Part shown: positions 5,157 to 46,331 of the stretch, one piece after another
How positions within the stretch are numbered: the first letter of the stretch is position 1
Layout of the letters: each line of letters begins with the position of its first letter
IMG/VR virus record: IMGVR_UViG_3300034521_000392
Span: 1 to 49,000 of that record
Length of the DNA: 49,000 bases
Direction: 5' to 3' (one strand)
Source: a virus
The notes under the pieces: model-generated
Databases searched by the model: none
What the model saw: only the letters and a program-made list of their open reading frames with translations
Told to the model about the DNA's origin: nothing
Translations under genes and position numbers: made by a program

Positions 5157-5803
5157 ATGGAATGCATCTGCTTAACGTATGCCGGACGCATAGTCTCTCT
5201 CCGGCTCAGGTGTCCAGCGTGGTCGTGGTGAAGCACCATATTGTCTTCGAGGAGAATCATTGCGTGGCAAGGGTCAGCGCCGGGGAATGGTTGTCTGATG
5301 ATGACGTCACCAGGCAGGGCTTCTCCCGGTGATACCTGGTGAAAGCCATTGAGCGGCATGTTTTTCAGGTAGAGGTTTTCACCACGTAACCACCAACCAT
5401 TCGCACGTTCAAAGTTCGGCAGGCTAATACCACACAAATGATATGCGTCCCTGAACAATGTGTAGCAGTCCATAACACCATGCTCGAACCTGCGCCCCAG
5501 CAGGAATGGCACTGGCCTGTATTTGCGAATCCTACCACCGCACGCAAGCCACCACGGAAGCCCTGTAATCCCTTGCATCTGGCGATCAGCACCAGAAAGG
5601 AACGGTACGTTTTGTGGGTGCGAGTGGAACACCGCCACTACATCTCCCGCTTCCTCGGCTTTCAGCCAGTCATCATCGCTGATGCGGAAATGCTTGCCCG
5701 GTTCGGGATGCTCATTCCTGCAGCGGAACAACCGATCGCCATCAAGGATTAAGCCGCACACCTCATCCTGCGACGATGCCGCATATTCGAGTAACTCTTG
5801 CAT
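5084..5803 (-). CDS. K: Tail-tip peptidase K-like: JAMM plus NlpC/P60 domains
   Basis: A 239-residue protein with two domains. The first is a Mov34/JAMM metal peptidase with Glu14 and a complete H60-x-H62-x7-S70-x2-D73 signature. The second is an NlpC/P60 cysteine peptidase with candidate Cys113 (HGVMDCYTLF), His180 (DPCHAMIL) and a His-rich third site near 192-194. In lambda K this pairing is needed for tail-tip assembly and probably local cell-wall cleavage at DNA entry. The start overlaps the L stop (TGATG) and the end overlaps I, so the three genes are translationally coupled. All catalytic residues look intact. Confidence 0.92.
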   Translation of the reverse strand: MQELLEYAASSQDEVCGLILDGDRLFRCRNEHPEPGKHFRISDDDWLKAEEAGDVVAVFHSHPQNVPFLSGADRQMQGITGLPWWLACGGRIRKYRPVPFLLGRRFEHGVMDCYTLFRDAYHLCGISLPNFERANGWWLRGENLYLKNMPLNGFHQVSPGEALPGDVIIRQPFPGADPCHAMILLEDNMVLHHDHAGHLSRRETMRPAYVKQMHSIWRHEQCSSLNLLAIYADFTARSL

Positions 5804-9260: not shown

Positions 9261-9731
9261 TTAATTACACCAAGACTCGTAAGAATCGTTAAACACGCCA
9301 ACTAGTTGTTCGACAATTTTTCTTGAAGTTTCACTTCCAGACAATTGCACTGGGTACTTAGACATTTTAATAAAAGGTGATTCATTGCTATCGACATACA
9401 CAAATTTCGCCCCTATCTTACTTATATCAGTTTTCCCAGAAACCATGCCACATACAGCGCTACCTCTTTTGTGTCGGTAAACCTTCATTTCTGAAAATGT
9501 AACTCCATTGTTTATGTTGAAGTTGGAATCACAGACAGCAATCATTCTTGCCTTAGGCGCTATTTTATTACTGCTCATACTCTGCCATCTTCGGCATTCA
9601 CCTTGCTTATAATCTTTTGCAAGAGTTCTTTTTACCGATGATTTCGCCTCAGTTAATAACACATCATCACTTTTCTTATCGCATCCTGATAAAAAAACAC
9701 AGGCAAGCAATATGATCAGTAACTTGTTCAC
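9261..9731 (-). CDS. Putative lipoprotein, accessory (moron-like) gene
   Basis: A 156-residue protein with a clear type II signal peptide: MNKLLIILLACVFLSGC, where Cys17 would be lipidated. Asp18 follows it (CDKK), a +2 residue that favours retention in the inner membrane. The mature part has further cysteines (C48, C67, C94, C155) that could form disulphides in the periplasm. It starts at GTG, overlapping the upstream stop by four bases. AT content is higher than in the tail genes. Lipoproteins in tail operons of T1, T5, phi80 and N15 (Cor/Llp) block superinfection, so exclusion is a reasonable guess, but I see no sequence match to those proteins. Confidence 0.7.
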   Translation of the reverse strand: MNKLLIILLACVFLSGCDKKSDDVLLTEAKSSVKRTLAKDYKQGECRRWQSMSSNKIAPKARMIAVCDSNFNINNGVTFSEMKVYRHKRGSAVCGMVSGKTDISKIGAKFVYVDSNESPFIKMSKYPVQLSGSETSRKIVEQLVGVFNDSYESWCN

Positions 9732-10057
9732 ATCGCAGCCCCGCGCTCTTTATGGATGGATATCTCGTTAAGATGCTCAACAACCCTAATACCAAAATCA
9801 GTAATCGTGTATGGCTTGGTGAATATATTTATCATCTCAGAAAGATGTTTATGTGGATCGCTTAAAATTGGGTGCTCTGGTGAGTTTTTAGCATTGTAGT
9901 GAGACACACCAACGAGAGCAAACACCAACTCTTCAAATACAACACGCTTCGTGACTCCATCATATGTAACTTTATCATCACCAGTTTTATGTTTAAGATA
10001 GCGTAAATAGGCAGCAGCAACTTCCTCTGCCAAGCGCTGCAATTGGTCTTGTTCCAT
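9728..10057 (-). CDS. Hypothetical protein in accessory block
   Basis: A 109-residue soluble protein. The start is ATG 10057 (MEQDQLQRLAEEVAAAYLRY), preceded by GGAG at good spacing. It is predicted mostly helical with no membrane segment. A central VVFEELVFALVGV and C-terminal YTITDFGIRVVEHLNEI suggest a compact helical or winged fold. It lies between the antirepressor terminator and the lipoprotein gene and is translationally coupled to the latter. I do not recognise the family. Coupling suggests the two act together, perhaps in superinfection immunity; that is inference only. Confidence 0.6.
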   Translation of the reverse strand: MEQDQLQRLAEEVAAAYLRYLKHKTGDDKVTYDGVTKRVVFEELVFALVGVSHYNAKNSPEHPILSDPHKHLSEMINIFTKPYTITDFGIRVVEHLNEISIHKERGAAM

Positions 10058-10127
10058 GTAGCTTCTCCAGTTTTTTGGTATCAAATGAATCCTACCATCT
10101 GTTGACGACGAGGTCAGCAGGAACGAC

Positions 10128-10150
10128 AAAACCCGCAGTTAAGCGGGTTT
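10128..10150 (-). terminator. Intrinsic terminator after antirepressor
   Basis: On the minus strand AAACCCGC, loop TTAACT, GCGGGTTT, then one more T. It ends the Arc-like/antirepressor unit 20 bases after its stop codon. The stem is symmetric, with A-rich flank on the other side, so it may also work weakly on the plus strand. Confidence 0.75.
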
Positions 10151-10169
10151 GTGGTAATCGTGATATCGG

Positions 10170-11093
10170 TTACAGGTTAATGCGATGACATGCCTTATCA
10201 CGAACAGCGACGTATGAGGCCATTTCTTTCATCGCCCAGCTCTGCTCAGCCATGATGGTGCGCAGCGCCTTTAGCTCAGCGCTTACCGCACTAACGTCGT
10301 ATCCGGCGGCTGTGAGTGCCGAAACCAATTTATAAGCCGGGCTGCAATCAACCAGTGCCGCGCGATCAAGGGTTATCGTATCACCACATTGTTGACGAAT
10401 AACTGTATACGGCGCGTTTTCAACAAACCAAGAAATCGGGAAGTTGATATCCAGTTTCGGCGCGGGTAGTTCTTCCTGCTTGCCGATGAACTCCCCTTCC
10501 AACGGCACTCGAGCCGCAATAGAAAGCGCCTCAGTAAACTGGTCTTCGCTGATTTCCTTGTAGCTGCAACCAAAATGGGATTTAAGTGACGACCACATTG
10601 TGATCATCGCTTTGGCCTGGCATTCTTTCGGCAACGCTTTACCGCGAGTCATTACCAGTTGCTTAATGGCTTCCTGCTGCTCGGAGGTGATTTTTCCGGG
10701 TAGTGATTTTTTAGCCTTGCGCGGGTTCTTAACCTCGCCTTTCGTCCAGTACTCGTAAAGCACATCGTCGCACTCTTCCTGATAGCGAATGACGTTATCG
10801 CGGATTTCCGGGCGGACCTTGTTCGGACTAATACTGTTCAGCCAAGCAGCTAGCTTGCGTAACGCCAGGCAAATCATAGATTGCATCCCGCCAGCCGAAG
10901 GTATGGTGATTTCGACCATACCTTTTGCAAAGCGTTGAGAAATCTTCTTATGTTGCGATTTCCAGTCCAACCCCATACCCTCCACAATTGGCTTCATCGG
11001 GGTATAAGCCTCACCGTTGTGCTCAACAACGAAAAGAGAATTACCATAGAAAGGCACGTTGATTGTGCGATCTGCAATTGCTAAACTTGTCAT
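10170..11093 (-). CDS. ant: Antirepressor, P22 Ant-like
   Basis: A 307-residue protein with the phage antirepressor N-terminal domain (residues about 1-125: FYGNSLFVVEHNGEAYTPMK, GMGLDWKSQHKKI, LRKLAAWLNSISPNKVRPEI). P22 Ant binds and inactivates C2-type repressors, so this protein would release lysogeny or overcome immunity. The start is ATG 11093 (MTSLAIAD) with GGGA upstream; a TTG five codons earlier is possible. It follows the Arc-like gene by 71 bases, an interval holding a predicted antisense RNA. It sits inside the tail operon but ends in its own terminator. The C-terminal half is less conserved, as in other Ant proteins. Confidence 0.88.
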   Translation of the reverse strand: MTSLAIADRTINVPFYGNSLFVVEHNGEAYTPMKPIVEGMGLDWKSQHKKISQRFAKGMVEITIPSAGGMQSMICLALRKLAAWLNSISPNKVRPEIRDNVIRYQEECDDVLYEYWTKGEVKNPRKAKKSLPGKITSEQQEAIKQLVMTRGKALPKECQAKAMITMWSSLKSHFGCSYKEISEDQFTEALSIAARVPLEGEFIGKQEELPAPKLDINFPISWFVENAPYTVIRQQCGDTITLDRAALVDCSPAYKLVSALTAAGYDVSAVSAELKALRTIMAEQSWAMKEMASYVAVRDKACHRINL

Positions 11094-11166
11094 GTCAATA
11101 TTTCCCAATCAGATTTGTTGATATCGAAGCCTCAATGGTTGCAGCCATTGGGGCTTCGCTGTTTTT
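11092..11166 (+). ncRNA. Predicted sar-like antisense RNA opposing ant translation
   Basis: A plus-strand promoter TTGATT (11059-11064), 17 bases, TAAACT (11082-11087) would start RNA near 11092-11097. A 14-bp stem with a six-base loop (11125-11158), then CTGTTTTT, would end it at about 11166. The RNA of roughly 75 bases is antisense to the ant start and Shine-Dalgarno and covers the arc-ant gap. P22 makes sar RNA of about 69 bases from exactly this place to repress ant. Position, length, promoter and terminator all agree; expression is not shown. Confidence 0.6.
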
Positions 11167-11326
11167 ACAGCGCATGTTGCATTTTCTCTCTGTACTTTAG
11201 CCACCAAACCAATCCTTGGACCAAGACTGCATTTTCTGAAAGCCCCTCCTCATCGGCTATGCGTTTAAACTCCTCTTTCAACTTCTGCGGATAACGCAGG
11301 GTCGTCTTTACTTCACTCTTTTCCAC
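11165..11326 (-). CDS. arc: Arc-like ribbon-helix-helix repressor
   Basis: A 53-residue protein starting at GTG 11326 with a perfect AAGGAG six bases upstream. This start gives exactly the length of P22 Arc and leaves the operator region free. An ATG seven codons earlier lacks a ribosome site and lies within an operator repeat. The ribbon-helix-helix fold shows as VKTTLRYPQKLKEEFKRIAD (strand and first helix) then EGLSENAVLVQGLVWWL (second helix). By analogy it dimerises, binds its own promoter and shuts off its operon with ant. The C-terminus has WW instead of Arc's usual residues. Confidence 0.75.
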   Translation of the reverse strand: MEKSEVKTTLRYPQKLKEEFKRIADEEGLSENAVLVQGLVWWLKYREKMQHAL

Positions 11327-11338
11327 TCTTATCTCCTT

Positions 11339-11425
11339 AGGGGCCATAATGCCACCACAAGGCCATAATGCCACCATTGAAATGATATGGCAATATGGCA
11401 CCATTGTTTTTTTGAGGGATTTGCA
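11339..11425. promoter_or_regulatory. Divergent operator/promoter region of immI-like module
   Basis: The 87 bases between the Arc-like and Mnt-like starts hold a direct repeat GGCCATAATGCCACCA (11342-11357 and 11361-11376, period 19 bases) and related half-sites TGGCACCATTG (11396-11406) and TGCCACCATTG. Minus-strand promoter candidate: TTGCCA, 17 bases, CATTAT. Plus-strand candidate: ATGCCA, 17 bases, CAATAT. Two ribbon-helix-helix proteins flank it, as in P22 Pant/Pmnt. Site-to-protein assignment is inference. Confidence 0.65.
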
Positions 11426-11785
11426 ATGGCCGAAAAACAAGTAAAAGATTACGACAAGTTCAACCTACGCTTCCCGGATGGGATGCGTGACGCTATAGCT
11501 GAGCGGGCCAAGCGCAATGGCAGGTCGATGAACTCTGAAATTGTGCAGATACTTCAAGAAACGCTGGATACCGATAAGGCTGTTTCTGAAAGCGACCTTG
11601 TTGATTTCGACTCAACTCAAGCCGCTTTTAATGCCGCATCGACAGTAGAAGAGAAAGAGCAGTTCCTAAGTAATCTTGCGAAAAAAGACCCGTTCACGGC
11701 AGACATACTTCGCGAGGGAGAAGAGCACGCCAGAAGACTTGCTGCGATACTTGGCCGCCGCATGGGGTATCTGGATGAAGAGTAG
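11426..11785 (+). CDS. mnt: Mnt-like ribbon-helix-helix repressor
   Basis: A 119-residue protein starting at ATG 11426 with GAGG upstream. The N-terminal DNA-binding part reads KFNLRFPDGMRDAIAERAKR then NGRSMNSEIVQILQ, very close to P22 Mnt, whose NGRSMNSE stretch is identical. The C-terminal helical tail (about 60-119) is longer than Mnt's tetramerisation helix. P22 Mnt is made in the lysogen and represses ant. Here it is transcribed away from arc and ant, the same layout. It is one of the few plus-strand genes inside the minus-strand late region, as expected of a gene expressed from the prophage. Confidence 0.85.
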   Translation: MAEKQVKDYDKFNLRFPDGMRDAIAERAKRNGRSMNSEIVQILQETLDTDKAVSESDLVDFDSTQAAFNAASTVEEKEQFLSNLAKKDPFTADILREGEEHARRLAAILGRRMGYLDEE

Positions 11786-11825
11786 TAAAAATCCCAACTG
11801 ACTGAGCCAGGACATCTGACCAAAC

Positions 11826-11837
11826 TGTTAAAGAGCA
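11826..11837 (-). promoter_or_regulatory. boxA-like antitermination element
   Basis: The minus strand reads TGCTCTTTAACA, identical to the core of the E. coli rRNA-operon boxA that binds NusB-S10. It lies just before late transcripts would run antisense through the Mnt-like gene. No boxB hairpin is evident beside it. Function is inference. Confidence 0.4.
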
Positions 11838-11895
11838 CCTACCCACGTGATTAAAACGCTGGCGGGTGCGTAAAGATAGGGAAGCAATGAAAATG

Positions 11896-11910
11896 TTACC
11901 CGTTGGGTAA
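11896..11910. repeat. Perfect 15-base palindrome, possible operator
   Basis: TTACCCGTTGGGTAA is a perfect inverted repeat (six-base arms, three-base centre) in the AT-rich non-coding stretch between the Mnt-like gene and the next tail-operon terminator. No protein partner is identified. Confidence 0.4.
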
Positions 11911-11937
11911 TAATATGTTGATAAATGGCACTTTTTG

Positions 11938-11961
11938 CAAAAACAGCCCACCTGAGTGGGC
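11938..11961 (-). terminator. Intrinsic terminator after gene 11970-12191
   Basis: On the minus strand GCCCAC, loop TCAG, GTGGGC, then TGTTTTT. It closes the tail-side transcript at the edge of the immI-like block, insulating it from the late operon. Confidence 0.85.
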
Positions 11962-11969
11962 TTGAGTCT

Positions 11970-12191
11970 TTACTCCAGAAACCTGGTTCCTGTCACAAAA
12001 TCATCGCTACCAACTCGGTGGCTGCCGTAAACGGCATCGTACCCAACACCAAGATCAGCAGCTTTCGTTTCGGCTACATCTTTTGTGGCGTATACACCGA
12101 CAAGGTGCCAGGGAGAACCGCGCACAACTCCCCACCCCAAGACCCATCCTTTGTTATCCGGGTCCGCTTTTAGTCCATCTGCTACAAACAT
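11970..12191 (-). CDS. Small conserved phage protein of unknown function
   Basis: A 73-residue protein (MFVADGLKADPDNKGWVLGW). A near-ideal AAAGGAGAT precedes the ATG, so translation is likely. It is Gly and Trp rich, without membrane segment or signal, suggesting a small beta barrel (GVVRGSPWHLVGVYATKDVAE). I do not recognise its function. It lies between the tail-chaperone region and the immI-like block and ends in a strong terminator. Similar short proteins occur in enterobacterial prophages as hypothetical genes; it could be part of the accessory insert rather than the tail. Confidence 0.65.
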   Translation of the reverse strand: MFVADGLKADPDNKGWVLGWGVVRGSPWHLVGVYATKDVAETKAADLGVGYDAVYGSHRVGSDDFVTGTRFLE

Positions 12192-12259
12192 GCATATCTC
12201 CTTTGTTAACCAGATTGCATGTTATTTCGCCTGACGAAGGCAAGGCAAGGTGCAAAGAC

Positions 12260-12484
12260 TCAGGATAAAGTGGCTTTCACGTTTAACCCGGTGATACCAC
12301 CGGATGGAAACAGAACTGACAGGGGGCTATCATCAACACTTACATCATAGTGGCGGATGAACACATTCGAAATTTTACCTGACAGGGAATCCTCAACCAG
12401 TACGCTATCACCCTGCAATACCTGAAACTCAACATTATTGAGAACAATACCACTGGATGAGAATTCAATTTTAACTCGCTTCAT
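12260..12484 (-). CDS. Small hypothetical protein in tail region
   Basis: A 74-residue protein beginning MKRVKIEFSSSGIVLNN, with GAGG at suitable distance upstream. The alternating hydrophobic pattern (FQVLQGDSVLVEDSLSGKI) suggests an all-beta fold. It starts 22 bases after the chaperone candidate stops, in the slot where lambda has the GT extension, but I see neither a slippery sequence nor a frame that would fuse the two. The role is unknown; tail assembly or an accessory role are both possible. Confidence 0.6.
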   Translation of the reverse strand: MKRVKIEFSSSGIVLNNVEFQVLQGDSVLVEDSLSGKISNVFIRHYDVSVDDSPLSVLFPSGGITGLNVKATLS

Positions 12485-12506
12485 AGTCTTTTCCTCACGT
12501 AAACAG

Positions 12507-13160
12507 TTAATGCGGTCCGTTCCGTTGCGCGTCGATCGCCAGCATCTGCTCTGCCCAGTTCATAACTTCGTCATATTTCTCCTGGGTTGGCACCTTGCCT
12601 TTATCCTTTTGCGGGAACTTGGCATTCATGGCAGCCCGGAAGCTGGTCATCGTCATGTTCCAGGCGTCCGCCTCGCTCATTCCGAGGTGGGCAACAGCGG
12701 TATAGACGAATGACCTGACATCGAATTTATCGCTGTACTCGCCCTTCTTGCTCTCGAACTCTCCCGGGGGCTGATCGCCCATTACGCCATGAAGCATCAG
12801 GTGGCGGGCGAGTTGAATAACATCTTCGATCGGAATGGCTCCCGGCTTGAACAGCAGCCGTCCTGCCGCATTCACTGAGTACGAACCAATCACCTCTGCA
12901 ATGTTACCTTCTGAGCAATGCCGGACTACGCTGGCAGCCGACGCAGCCATTTCAGCAAAGCAACGAGCGTTAACAGCCTTCAGAGTCTGGATATCGGCGA
13001 TATGGTGTTTCGGATAGTGCCCGGCATGAACCTTCACGAAAGCATCAACAATCTGTTCCGGTGAGCCGATTCGGGACATAGCCAGAAATGAAGGGTTGAG
13101 AAATATCTCTTTGCCAGCGGCGCGAATGACAGCCTGGCCGATATCGGTTATTGCTTTCAT
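12507..13160 (-). CDS. Tail assembly chaperone candidate (G position)
   Basis: A 217-residue mostly helical protein starting at ATG 13160 (MKAITDIGQAVIRAAGKEIF), preceded by GAGAGG. It occupies the place of the tail chaperone G between the major tail protein and the tape measure. A C-terminal VYTAVAHLGMSEADAWNMTM segment resembles the helical motif of tail-chaperone and GPW-like proteins that recruit the tape measure. The family looks like one annotated as DUF6246 (from memory). A strong terminator separates it from the major tail gene, giving lower expression than the tube protein. The chaperone role is inference from order and helix pattern. Confidence 0.6.
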   Translation of the reverse strand: MKAITDIGQAVIRAAGKEIFLNPSFLAMSRIGSPEQIVDAFVKVHAGHYPKHHIADIQTLKAVNARCFAEMAASAASVVRHCSEGNIAEVIGSYSVNAAGRLLFKPGAIPIEDVIQLARHLMLHGVMGDQPPGEFESKKGEYSDKFDVRSFVYTAVAHLGMSEADAWNMTMTSFRAAMNAKFPQKDKGKVPTQEKYDEVMNWAEQMLAIDAQRNGPH

Positions 13161-37781: not shown

Positions 37782-37858
37782 TTAATCAACACCATGTTAA
37801 TTCATGACGTGGATTAAATCAACATCATGATGATGGAAAAAATACACATCATGTTTAC
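37782..37858. promoter_or_regulatory. Right operator region with pR
   Basis: Operator-like 17-mers with half-sites ATCAACA and TGTTNAT lie at 37785-37801, 37818-37834 and 37842-37858; a weaker overlapping one lies at 37798-37814. pR on the minus strand reads TTGATT, 17 bases, TAACAT. The same motif occurs at pL. CI and Cro would bind here. Confidence 0.75.
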
Positions 37859-37880
37859 CATGGAGGGAAGCGGAGGTTTT

Positions 37881-38591
37881 ATGAGTGGAATTGCAGAAAG
37901 AATCCGGCATTTACTTGCCAGAGAAAATATGAAGCAGAAGGATTTGGCTGAACAGCTTTCTACGAGTGCGCAGACTGTTAATAACTGGATTAAGCGTGAC
38001 TCCATAAGCCGTGAGGCTGCTCAGCAAATTTCAGAGAAGTATGGGTATTCTTTAGACTGGCTTTTAAATGGCAAGGGATCACCAAAGATAACTGATGATG
38101 CTGGAATCCCTCCTGAATCAGAATGGGGAACCGTAGACGCATGGGACAAGAACACGCCACTACCAGATGATGAGGTTGAAGTGCCGTTCCTTAAGGACAT
38201 TGAATTTGCATGTGGTGATGGGCGCGTACATAGCGAAGATCATAACGGTTTTAAGCTGAGGTTCTCAAAGGCAACATTGCGTCGCGTTGGGGCAAATAGC
38301 GATGGTTCTGGCGTTCTTTGTTTCCCGGCAACCGGTGACAGCATGGAACCAGTAATACCTGATGGGACAACCGTTGCGGTAGACACGAATAATAAGCGCA
38401 TAGTCGATGGTAAACTTTATGCTATCGCTCAGCCAGGTGGCGGAGACGATAAGTTGAAGCGCATAAAACAGCTATATCGCAATCCTGGTGGAATGCTGAC
38501 TATACGCAGCTTTAACCGGGAAGATGAGACAGCGAACGAAGCTGATGTAGAAATCATTGGTCGCGTATTCTGGTACTCTGTATTGCTATAG
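37881..38591 (+). CDS. cI: CI repressor, LexA-like
   Basis: A 236-residue repressor starting at ATG 37881 (MSGIAERIRHLLARENMKQK) with GGAGG just upstream. Residues 1-65 form an XRE HTH (QKDLAEQLSTSAQTVNNWIK). The C-terminal S24 peptidase has Ser154 (GDSMEP) and Lys178 (DGKLYAI); a Cys111-Gly112 bond is the likely RecA-stimulated cleavage site. It holds lysogeny by binding the operators beside cro and pL. Induction by DNA damage is expected. A terminator follows. Confidence 0.95.
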   Translation: MSGIAERIRHLLARENMKQKDLAEQLSTSAQTVNNWIKRDSISREAAQQISEKYGYSLDWLLNGKGSPKITDDAGIPPESEWGTVDAWDKNTPLPDDEVEVPFLKDIEFACGDGRVHSEDHNGFKLRFSKATLRRVGANSDGSGVLCFPATGDSMEPVIPDGTTVAVDTNNKRIVDGKLYAIAQPGGGDDKLKRIKQLYRNPGGMLTIRSFNREDETANEADVEIIGRVFWYSVLL

Positions 38592-43702: not shown

Positions 43703-43851
43703 CTCACGCTCACGACGACATCAGGGTTGGCACTCTGTGCCTTCCCTTCATTGGTAACGGCTGGCTAATGCCATGGGGTGAAGTGGTCAGCAATCCATTA
43801 AAGGCGCAGCGGCTCGCTGAGGAATATCGGGAAAGACAGGAGGCAGCATGA
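43699..43851 (+). CDS. DUF1317 protein, lambda Orf61-like
   Basis: A 50-residue protein (MTHAHDDIRVGTLCLPFIGN). The NPLKAQRLAEEYRERQEAA tail matches lambda Orf61 (DUF1317), which lies in the exo-xis interval of lambda. The function is unknown but the gene is conserved in lambdoid early operons. Coupled to both neighbours by overlap. The match to lambda supports the operon's identity as a pL recombination operon. Confidence 0.85.
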   Translation: MTHAHDDIRVGTLCLPFIGNGWLMPWGEVVSNPLKAQRLAEEYRERQEAA

Positions 43852-44600
43852 TTCATTTTCACGGCGGCCCTATTACGCCGGACACATGCGCACTGAAGGC
43901 ATGGAAAGGCAGGCACGCTTTCATTTCCTTCGCCAACCCTGGCCAATTAGCCCTGGCCAGCGAAGTCACCCAGTCTTTCGCGCTGGATAACGGCGCATTC
44001 AGCTTCTGGACGAAAAAGCGCGTTGTTAACTGGAATGACTACTACGCGTTTGTAGGTCGCTGGATGAATCACCCTCGCTTTGCTTTTGCTGTTATCCCTG
44101 ACGTGATCGGCGGGACCAGTGAAGAGAACGACGCGTTAATCGCCGAGTGGCCGCACGGCAAAGTAGTCGGCGCTCCGGTGTGGCACATGAACGAGCCCGA
44201 TGAACGTTTCTTCCGCCTGTGTCGGGAATTTCCGCGCGTATGCATCGGCAGCATGGGTGAATACGACGCGAAGCGCCCGCGCTCATGTCGGGCAAAGTTA
44301 CGCGATCTCATCCGTCACGTTGTCGACATAAACGGTTATCCGATAACAAAGCTTCACGGCCTGCGCATGCTGAACGCCGATATCTTCCGCCATATCCCGC
44401 TGTCGTCAGCCGACAGTACAAACGTTGCGCGCAACATCGGAATCGACAAGGCGTGGGATAAATCAGCCTACGCGCCGGCAAGCAAAGAAACACGAGCTGC
44501 GGTGCTTGTCGAACGCATTGAAGCCTTTAACTCTGCAAGTTCGCTGAATTACGACGCAGAACGCGATCGGTTCACGCCACAACTTGCTTTCGAGGTGTAA
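43848..44600 (+). CDS. Possible TGT-like (DpdA-type) protein
   Basis: A 250-residue protein (MIHFHGGPITPDTCALKAWK). FALDNGAFSFW, PDVIGGTSEEND, and ITKLHGLRMLN recall the conserved blocks of tRNA-guanine-transglycosylase-like DpdA proteins that insert 7-deazaguanines into DNA; the two aspartates would be the catalytic pair of a TIM barrel. No preQ0 synthesis gene lies nearby, so the base would have to come from the host. Two DNA methyltransferases follow. The family call is from remembered motifs and needs a profile search. Confidence 0.45.
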   Translation: MIHFHGGPITPDTCALKAWKGRHAFISFANPGQLALASEVTQSFALDNGAFSFWTKKRVVNWNDYYAFVGRWMNHPRFAFAVIPDVIGGTSEENDALIAEWPHGKVVGAPVWHMNEPDERFFRLCREFPRVCIGSMGEYDAKRPRSCRAKLRDLIRHVVDINGYPITKLHGLRMLNADIFRHIPLSSADSTNVARNIGIDKAWDKSAYAPASKETRAAVLVERIEAFNSASSLNYDAERDRFTPQLAFEV

Positions 44601-44604
44601 TTCC

Positions 44605-45264
44605 ATGACCGGAAAATACTCTCTTATCTACGCAGATCCGCCCTGGTCTTACGGCAACACCATCAGCAACGGGGCTGCTGCCGATCACTATTCCACGATG
44701 AAGCTCATCGACATAAAGCGTCTGCCAGTGTGGGAACTTGCCGCCGAAAACTCGGTGCTGGCGATGTGGTACACCGGCACGCATAACCAGGAAGCTATCG
44801 AACTGGCTGAGGCTTGGGGCTTTAGTGTTCGCACGATGAAAGGCTTTACCTGGGTGAAGCTGAATCAGAACGCTGAACTGCGCATCAACAAGGCGCTGGC
44901 CGAGGGTGAAATCACCGACTTTTACGACTTCCTCGATCTGCTTAACGCCGAGACGCGCATGAACGGTGGCAACCACACCCGGGCCAACACCGAAGACTTG
45001 CTGATTGCTACCCGCGGCGCCGGGCTGGAACGACAGCGCGCTGGCATTAAGCAGGTGGTCTACAGCCCGCTCGGCGCGCACAGCGAAAAGCCGTGGGAAG
45101 TACGCCACCGGCTGGAACTACTTTACGGTGATGTGCCGCGGATTGAGCTTTTCAGCCGCAGCGCGGCGCCAGGCTGGCATCACTGGGGAAATCAGTGCGC
45201 CACCGCTTCCGTTGAGCTGATCCCAGGCTGTGCCATCGACGTTGTGAAGACGGAGGCAGCATGA
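44605..45264 (+). CDS. MT-A70-type adenine methyltransferase
   Basis: A 219-residue protein starting at ATG 44605 (MTGKYSLIYADPPWSYGNTI). DPPW (residues 11-14) is the catalytic motif of N6-adenine methyltransferases of MT-A70 type. AMWYTGTHNQEAIELAEAWG and NHTRANTEDLLIATRG are family motifs. No target-recognition domain or restriction partner is visible, so it is probably an orphan enzyme protecting phage DNA from restriction. It shares a four-base overlap with the cytosine methyltransferase. Confidence 0.9.
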   Translation: MTGKYSLIYADPPWSYGNTISNGAAADHYSTMKLIDIKRLPVWELAAENSVLAMWYTGTHNQEAIELAEAWGFSVRTMKGFTWVKLNQNAELRINKALAEGEITDFYDFLDLLNAETRMNGGNHTRANTEDLLIATRGAGLERQRAGIKQVVYSPLGAHSEKPWEVRHRLELLYGDVPRIELFSRSAAPGWHHWGNQCATASVELIPGCAIDVVKTEAA

Positions 45265-46331
45265 CGCCTACAGCTTACTACAACGAGATCGACCCATTCG
45301 CGGCGCAGTGGCTGCGTAACCTCATAGTCGCCGGGCATATAGCACCGGGCGAAGTTGACGAACGGAGTATTGAAGATGTCACACCTGAAGATCTACGAGG
45401 ATTCACGCAGTGCCACTTCTTTGCCGGAATTGGCGCCTGGTCCCATTCCCTGCGTCTCGCAGGGTGGCCTGACGATAAACAAGTCTGGACTGGCTCCTGC
45501 CCGTGCCAGCCTTTCAGCGCGGCAGGCAAAGGCGATGGGTTTGCTGACGAGCGGCACCTTTGGCCCCACTTCTTCCACCTCATCAGAGAGCGCAGACCTG
45601 AGCATGTCTTTGGCGAACAGGTTGCAGCAGGTAACGCAAACGCATGGTTCGACCTTGTACAAGCTGACCTGGAAGGAGTGGGATACGCCTTCGGGCTTGT
45701 GCCGTTTGCGGCAGCGGGCGTCGGTGCGCCGCACATCAGAGAGCGGGCCTACTGGGTGGCCAACACCAACAGCATCATCAGTGACCGGGGCGGGTACCTC
45801 AGGACGTCAGGGCGGAATGAATATTCAAACGGCTGCGATGATGTCCGGCTGGCCGACGCCGGTCGCGAACGATGCAAGCGGATCAACCCATTGCTACAGC
45901 GGGAAAAATCAAGACGGAACGCCGAAGGTGTGTCTGAAGTTGCCAGGTTCGGTGCTTCTGACAGGCTGGCCCACACCGACAACGAGCAACACTCGATCGC
46001 CATCAGTAGATGCAGCCATGAATATGTATCGGCAGGACGGCAGCAAGACCCAGCAGCGCTTGCAGGACTTCGCAGGGATTGCCGGGCCCTTGAGGTTAAC
46101 GGTTTTTGGCGAGATGCGGATTGGCTTCTTTGTCGAGATGGCAAATGGCGTCCAGTTGAACCCGGCACATTCCCGCTGGTTGATGGGGCTGCCGCGCGCT
46201 TGGGACGAGTCGAGTCCGGGGTGGCAAGAGTGGCAAGCAGCAACCGCGTCGGCCGACTCAAAGGCTATGGTAACGCCATAAACGCACAGGCTGCGGCTGA
46301 ATTTATCCGGGCCTATATGGAGGGGTTATGA
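45261..46331 (+). CDS. C5-cytosine DNA methyltransferase
   Basis: A 356-residue enzyme (MTPTAYYNEIDPFAAQWLRN). Motif I is FAGIG (54-58), motif IV PCQPFS with catalytic Cys82, motif VI FGEQV (117-121; Glu with Gln in place of the usual Asn), motif VIII RERAY with Arg160/162, and motif X GYGNAI (335-340). The region 166-310 is the variable target-recognition part, with repeated VANTNS, LADAG and LAHTD. It probably protects phage DNA. Almost all of it is overlapped by a second long frame. Confidence 0.9.
   Translation: MTPTAYYNEIDPFAAQWLRNLIVAGHIAPGEVDERSIEDVTPEDLRGFTQCHFFAGIGAWSHSLRLAGWPDDKQVWTGSCPCQPFSAAGKGDGFADERHLWPHFFHLIRERRPEHVFGEQVAAGNANAWFDLVQADLEGVGYAFGLVPFAAAGVGAPHIRERAYWVANTNSIISDRGGYLRTSGRNEYSNGCDDVRLADAGRERCKRINPLLQREKSRRNAEGVSEVARFGASDRLAHTDNEQHSIAISRCSHEYVSAGRQQDPAALAGLRRDCRALEVNGFWRDADWLLCRDGKWRPVEPGTFPLVDGAAARLGRVESGVARVASSNRVGRLKGYGNAINAQAAAEFIRAYMEGL
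45376..46281 (+). CDS. Overprinted 301-residue frame inside the cytosine methyltransferase gene
   Basis: In the +1 frame relative to the methyltransferase, ATG 45376 (MSHLKIYEDSRSATSLPELA) has GGAG eight bases upstream. The frame runs 301 codons without a stop. It has three GWPTP repeats spaced about 30-40 residues apart and ends LNPAHSRWLMGLPRAWDESS. I recall this GWPTP/LNPxHSRWLMG pattern as a widespread hypothetical phage family. Either it is a true overlapping gene or a conserved shadow of methyltransferase sequence. No known domain. It needs codon-level comparison. Confidence 0.5.
   Translation: MSHLKIYEDSRSATSLPELAPGPIPCVSQGGLTINKSGLAPARASLSARQAKAMGLLTSGTFGPTSSTSSESADLSMSLANRLQQVTQTHGSTLYKLTWKEWDTPSGLCRLRQRASVRRTSESGPTGWPTPTASSVTGAGTSGRQGGMNIQTAAMMSGWPTPVANDASGSTHCYSGKNQDGTPKVCLKLPGSVLLTGWPTPTTSNTRSPSVDAAMNMYRQDGSKTQQRLQDFAGIAGPLRLTVFGEMRIGFFVEMANGVQLNPAHSRWLMGLPRAWDESSPGWQEWQAATASADSKAMVTP

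Follow-up and report, generated by a model that had tools for sequence, protein, structure and literature searches.

The sequence analysed here, referred to as the window, is a stretch of 49,000 nucleotides covering positions 1 to 49,000 of the IMG/VR virus record IMGVR_UViG_3300034521_000392. An antirepressor gene, ant, which encodes 307 amino acids, lies on the minus strand at 10170-11093 and was assigned by matches to Pfam P22_AR_N (4.3e-43) and to phrog_524 and phrog_245 (anti-repressor Ant). On the same strand, an arc-like repressor gene occupies 11165-11326 and would encode 53 amino acids if translation starts at the GTG at 11326 after AAGGAG, as is presumed here; the match to phrog_582, Arc-like repressor, was obtained for 11165-11350 (1.1e-9). 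A mnt-like repressor gene at 11426-11785 is oriented divergently on the plus strand and matches the Pfam Arc-like DNA binding domain (2.9e-19) and Arc-like families of PHROGs. A candidate Pant promoter at 11365-11393 on the minus strand (TTGCCA, 17 bases, CATTAT, with TG before it) was assigned by consensus match only. The stretch between the arc-like and mnt-like genes (11350-11425) also contains repeated GGCCATAATGCCACCA-like and ATGGCA motifs, which are candidate operators. The order and strands of this module are those of the immI region of phage P22 (X01916), with mnt divergent from arc-ant and sar between arc and ant. The same module order is found in epsilon34, and its record annotates sar and Psar at the equivalent place.

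Tail and head genes flank the module on both sides on the minus strand, a tape-measure gene lies downstream of ant, and arc-ant shares the orientation of the tail genes around it. The closest annotated phages among the matches listed are the Salmonella siphoviruses SPN3UB, S107, Oslo and ES18, with about 81-82% identity over 44-55% of the first 25 kb. The best reading of the gene content is that the immI module (mnt, arc, sar, ant) sits inside the tail operon of a siphovirus. A CI-like repressor gene is present at 37827-38591, and its product is the expected kind of target for Ant. Further away, the plus-strand genes at 43848-44600 and 45261-46331 match phage families of queuine tRNA-ribosyltransferase and DNA methyltransferase, and they possibly form a DNA modification cassette.

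The putative promoter Psar is located on the plus strand, with the -35 hexamer TTGATT at 11059-11064 and, after a spacer of 17 bases, the hexamer TAAACT at 11082-11087. TGC directly precedes TAAACT, so that the element can be read as the extended -10 TGCTAAACT at 11079-11087. This extended character is absent from the preliminary description, which had proposed TTGATT-N17-TAAACT on the plus strand within the first ant codons. Sequence and position of that proposal are both correct: since the ant ATG lies at 11093-11091 on the minus strand, the -10 covers ant codons 3-5, and the -35 coincides approximately with codons 10-12. As in P22-type sar, the predicted promoter thus lies within the start of the ant coding sequence and reads against it. 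By consensus alone, Psar was not above chance, as it has 8/12 matches and falls below the listing limit of the promoter scan, and the consensus scan found 6 promoter-like sites in 9500-12800 compared to 4.3 (sd 1.8) in shuffles. With the consensus unremarkable on its own, the case for this candidate promoter rests on the comparison with relatives.

Relatives were collected with the Ant of the window (80 + 48 loci), the Ant of P22 (80), the Ant of an Erwinia phage (28) and from annotated phages (12), and 234 loci, window included, were examined at the ant start. Outside these 234 are 13 loci with an ant N-terminus that is unaligned or at the contig end, as well as L001 and L002, which are copies of the window, and L090 and L091, which gave no ant match. 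Among the 13, three loci (L088, L089, L094) have their best ant match in the C-terminal part; the two-hairpin core is nevertheless visible in them. One examined locus, L114, carries no sar-like hairpins and its -10 pattern looks like a coincidence. It is included in the counts of the -10 pattern, of hairpin I and II pairing, of RNAalifold and of terminators, and excluded from those of sar types, arc linkage, -35 hexamers and swapping.

The extended -10 pattern TGNTANNNT was found at the ant start in 212 of the 234 loci. The form in the window is a minority form, with TGCTAAACT in 24/234 loci compared to TGCTATACT in 157/234. The -35 is weakly kept, since of 65 distinct promoters from the relatives only 27 have at least four of six matches to TTGACA. 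This suggests that the extended -10 carries the sar promoter, because Psar of P22 itself has GTGTTA at the -35 spacing. The expected conservation of the promoter was therefore confirmed for the extended -10, whereas the TTGATT-type -35 provides weaker evidence.

The codon usage of ant offers a second view of this element. Filtering loci by the -10 pattern would have been circular, and no such filter was applied; the 213 loci with an aligned N-terminus yielded 61 distinct ATG starts. Near the ant start, 55 of these have a Ser with Ile, Leu, Val or Met as the next residue, and six lack this Ser motif. The motif Ser is encoded by AGT in 52/55 cases compared to 20/87 elsewhere in ant, the motif Ile by ATA in 39/41 compared to 17/141, and the Ala after the motif by GCA in all 46 cases compared to 52/178. 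AGT-ATA-GCA is the complement of TGCTATACT. Judged from these sequences, the extended -10 overrides the codon choice in ant, although p-values of the test overstate independence because the sequences are related.

The predicted sar antisense RNA (11094-11166, plus strand) is supported by a match to the Rfam family RF00262 and by folding, and would have its 5' end at 11094 or 11095 and its 3' end at about 11164-11166. Since the ant ATG ends the interval on one side and the arc-like stop codon at 11165-11167 on the other, the predicted RNA fills the arc-ant interval exactly. It spans the ant ribosome-binding site, GGGAAA at 11101-11106 on the minus strand, which is the expected target of sar. 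The complement of this site is held in the 5' side and loop of hairpin I (11094-11122). Hairpin II (11125-11158) is the predicted terminator stem, with 15 pairs, 8 of them G-C, and a loop of 4. It is directly followed by CTGTTTTT at 11159-11166, in which the T run at 11162-11166 overlaps the arc-like stop codon. A hairpin of 14 bp and an RNA of about 75 bases had been proposed earlier; the hairpin and a short predicted antisense RNA were recovered, with a stem of 15 bp and a length of about 70-73 nt instead. The proposed location, antisense to the ant start and between the arc-like gene and ant, is borne out by the coordinates, the Rfam match and the gene identities. Folding of the predicted RNA gives two hairpins and an energy of -31.4 kcal/mol compared to -14.5 (sd 2.9) in shuffles (z -5.86), and 0/200 shuffles fold as well, so the modelled fold exceeds chance. 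In P22, the sar RNA has a length of 68-69 nt according to the part of PMC12197685 concerned with it. The predicted RNA shares with P22-type sar this approximate length, the two hairpins with the second as terminator, the antisense position to the arc-ant intercistronic region and the 5' end at the ant start.

The Rfam sar model (RF00262) matches 11095-11160 on the plus strand with 38.4 bits and an E-value of 3.4e-6 over model positions 1-68, and with an E-value of 6.5e-8 in the search of the whole record. Since this score is below the gathering cut-off of 43 bits, nothing is reported when the whole window is searched at the gathering threshold. On sequence grounds, the element is a sar homologue by its layout and by intermediates, yet it is not a listed member by Rfam's own rule. 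One relative with the same hairpin I type as the window (L009) reaches 62.9 bits. Among 20 diverse relatives, only this locus and L025 reach the cut-off at the ant start for which they were fetched, and L068 reaches it at its second ant gene. The cut-off misses most of the diverse sar relatives tested.

The low score, together with TAAACT in place of the commoner TATACT, could also point to a degenerate sar whose RNA the window's phage has ceased to make. This is very unlikely, as the ant, arc-like and mnt-like frames are open, the hairpins are intact, and the TGCTAAACT form recurs among the loci counted above. In addition, two further loci are identical to the window over its 78-base sar stretch, and the contigs L003 and L004 have the same score of 38.4 bits.

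A hairpin on either strand folds on the other, and the minus strand indeed also folds (-22.4 kcal/mol, z -4.1). The structure could therefore serve the ant mRNA as a leader structure, a processing site or an attenuator, with no antisense RNA involved. To compare the hairpins, 53 representatives with less than 90% identity were used, with a register set only from Watson-Crick pairing. In hairpin II, pairs 1-13 contain 99 G-U compared to 9 A-C. Since an A-C on the sar strand is a G-U on the ant mRNA, this G-U excess indicates that pairing is maintained on the sar strand. The T run is located on the plus strand, and it is only on this strand that the biased ant codons form an extended -10. Taken together, a role confined to the ant mRNA is highly improbable.

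The pairing of hairpin II is well maintained among these representatives. Its paired fraction is 0.877 compared to a mean of 0.665 when whole 3' arms were shuffled between sequences; 0/1000 shuffles reach this value, the highest being 0.737. Its inner pairs show up to six different pair types, and RNAalifold on a MAFFT alignment reported 11 pairs in hairpin II, 8 of them with double changes. Hairpin I was not recovered in this RNAalifold analysis because the hairpin I types align poorly. When pairs were counted directly, hairpin I had a mean of 4.70 of 6 Watson-Crick pairs compared to 4.31 in arm-mixed controls, with 4.57 as the highest of 300 controls, and the comparative support for this putative hairpin is modest. 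A sar-strand terminator (at most -8 kcal/mol, at least 5 T in 8) was detected in 69 of 110 distinct sequences, compared to 23 for the opposite strand and 22 in shuffled sequences; on inspection, the weak T run of the P22 group explains at least part of the misses. The terminator hairpin was likewise expected to be kept in relatives, and a compensating hairpin does follow the extended -10 in them. The least probable reading is a plus-strand terminator or insulator against antisense transcription into arc and mnt, with a Psar RNA of no regulatory effect: hairpin II is the longest stem among seven terminator-like sites in 9500-12800, but the predicted 5' end at the ant start codon places the ribosome-binding site within the RNA, termination alone would require no hairpin I and no promoter in ant, and sar of P22 represses ant according to the relevant part of PMC12197685.

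In a search with window positions 11000-11460, 13 of the 19 matched phage records align only at query positions 79-188, which correspond to 11078-11187 and comprise the -10, sar and a short flank, and the outer flanks are unmatched in these records. In E. coli, 635 of 5426 complete genomes match 11030-11200. Directly upstream of ant, 186/211 sar-bearing loci have an arc-like frame compared to 2/23 loci without sar; since the arc profile was built from five proteins, divergent arcs may account for part of the 25 misses. One phage contig (L068) has two ant genes that are accompanied by distinct sar sequences, one at 2435-2500 on the minus and one at 5736-5803 on the plus strand. In phage CUS-3, an unannotated arc-like frame (L087:531-737, plus strand) and the sar core are both present; a passage in PMC2629481 describes this phage as appearing to lack arc.

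We consider that the stretch encodes a P22-type sar RNA silencing ant translation, with a probability of roughly 0.91. The sar-like antisense RNA first proposed between the arc-like gene and ant is supported by conservation, the Rfam match, the fold and the module, and its transcription is expected by analogy with P22. Function and layout of sar are already known from P22, and the window would add another member below the Rfam cut-off. Transcription would proceed from Psar within the first ant codons towards arc and stop at the hairpin II terminator, which lies over the arc stop codon; the product would be a two-hairpin RNA of about 70 bases. Its sequence is exactly complementary to the stretch between arc and ant, with the ribosome-binding site of ant included, so that the RNA should pair with the arc-ant mRNA, and ant translation would be blocked. 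It very probably blocks production of the phage's own antirepressor. Since arc and ant are co-directional with the tail genes, sar could also silence ant on late read-through transcripts, which Mnt and Arc at Pant would be unable to stop. From what is known of P22, a superinfecting phage that carries the same type of sar may also be affected in trans. For the window's phage, this names a likely antisense switch on the antirepressor, embedded in the late operon. In P22, antirepressor synthesis is blocked through the pairing of sar with ant mRNA, as stated in sections of PMC12197685 and PMC13397905, and the latter also reports its detection in RNA-seq. An action of sar on transcripts from the late promoter is mentioned in one part of PMC12111858.

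The relatives differ considerably in their sar sequences. Grouping 89 distinct sar sequences at 80% identity (greedy) resulted in 29 hairpin I types, 17 hairpin II types and 44 combinations. For 30 representatives, the mean predicted duplex energy is -140 kcal/mol when sar is paired with its own leader and -57 kcal/mol when it is paired with the other leaders; the strongest cross-type duplex reaches -123.5 kcal/mol, so some sar types would still cross-react. An ant that is 98-99% identical over 300 nt can accompany sar that is only 58-66% identical. Among pairs with at least 97% ant identity, sar is below 75% in 43/605, and 4 of 13 ant clusters (95%) contain more than one sar type. Since most near-identical ant pairs keep near-identical sar, swapping is a minority event. 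An exchange of hairpins would carry the matching ant leader along because sar and leader are one DNA.

Seven Moraxellaceae loci from named genomes were inspected for a sar-like layout, defined as a promoter-like -10 (TANACT) at or near the ant start and a sar-strand hairpin with a T run. It was seen in five of them, which come from Acinetobacter and Psychrobacter genomes (L116, L127, L129, L130, L131), and not in L132 and L135. In the set found with Acinetobacter/Psychrobacter Ant, which also contains some Enterobacterales types, a sar-strand terminator is present in 39 of 61 distinct sequences, compared to 15 for the opposite strand and 8 in shuffled sequences. In Acinetobacter/Psychrobacter loci and viral contigs, a hairpin loop motif is seen in both orientations, as CCGCCAAGAT or as its complement, as if the hairpin had been inverted.

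A tentative and rather doubtful extension of these observations is that sar forms a large modular system of antisense specificity types, in which a prophage sar silences only incoming ant of its own type and which extends in its layout from Enterobacterales to Acinetobacter/Psychrobacter prophages. If true, this would define antisense-RNA heteroimmunity groups comparable to those of c4 of P1/P7. A literature search by title and start of abstract, with most subscription papers outside its coverage, returned no paper on sar sequence types or Acinetobacter sar-like RNAs. The relatives of sar look more widespread and varied than the public RNA library shows. The control of antirepressors by sar is apparently split into many sequence types, and immunity groups among common prophages could be tested with reporters. 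Biased ant codons that spell a promoter on the opposite strand, in combination with a hairpin, would provide a simple finder of sar genes below the Rfam cut-off.

The original descriptions of P22 sar are reportedly those of Liao 1987, Wu 1987, and Schaefer and McClure 1997. Among other antisense RNAs of phages, c4 of P1 and P7 is made as part of the ant operon, whereas sar is made from its own opposite promoter. Like sar, c4 is a small antisense RNA that silences a phage ant and sets heteroimmunity, as outlined in part of PMC12197685; the likeness considered here is one of described function. The same applies to STnc6030 of the Salmonella prophage BTP1, described in an excerpt of PMC7067206 as a prophage antisense RNA against superinfecting phage; it is a different RNA from sar. 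Salmonella phage vB_SosS_Oslo (L084), a related siphovirus, is closer in its layout, with mnt, arc and ant upstream of the tape-measure gene. Its sar core is present and unannotated in its record, and it has other hairpin I and hairpin II types than the window. The P22 sar (RF00262) and the window's element share the position antisense to the arc-ant intercistron, the promoter in the first ant codons, a length of about 70 nt, two hairpins, a GAAGCC...GGCTTC terminator stem and a mnt gene divergent from arc-ant. They differ in the sequence of hairpin I and inner hairpin II and in the extended -10, which is TGCTATACT in P22 and TGCTAAACT in the window. Compared to P22, the window has a better -35 (TTGATT instead of GTGTTA), a poorer -10 and a stronger T run, and its module lies among siphovirus tail genes with a sar that scores 38.4 bits, below the Rfam cut-off.
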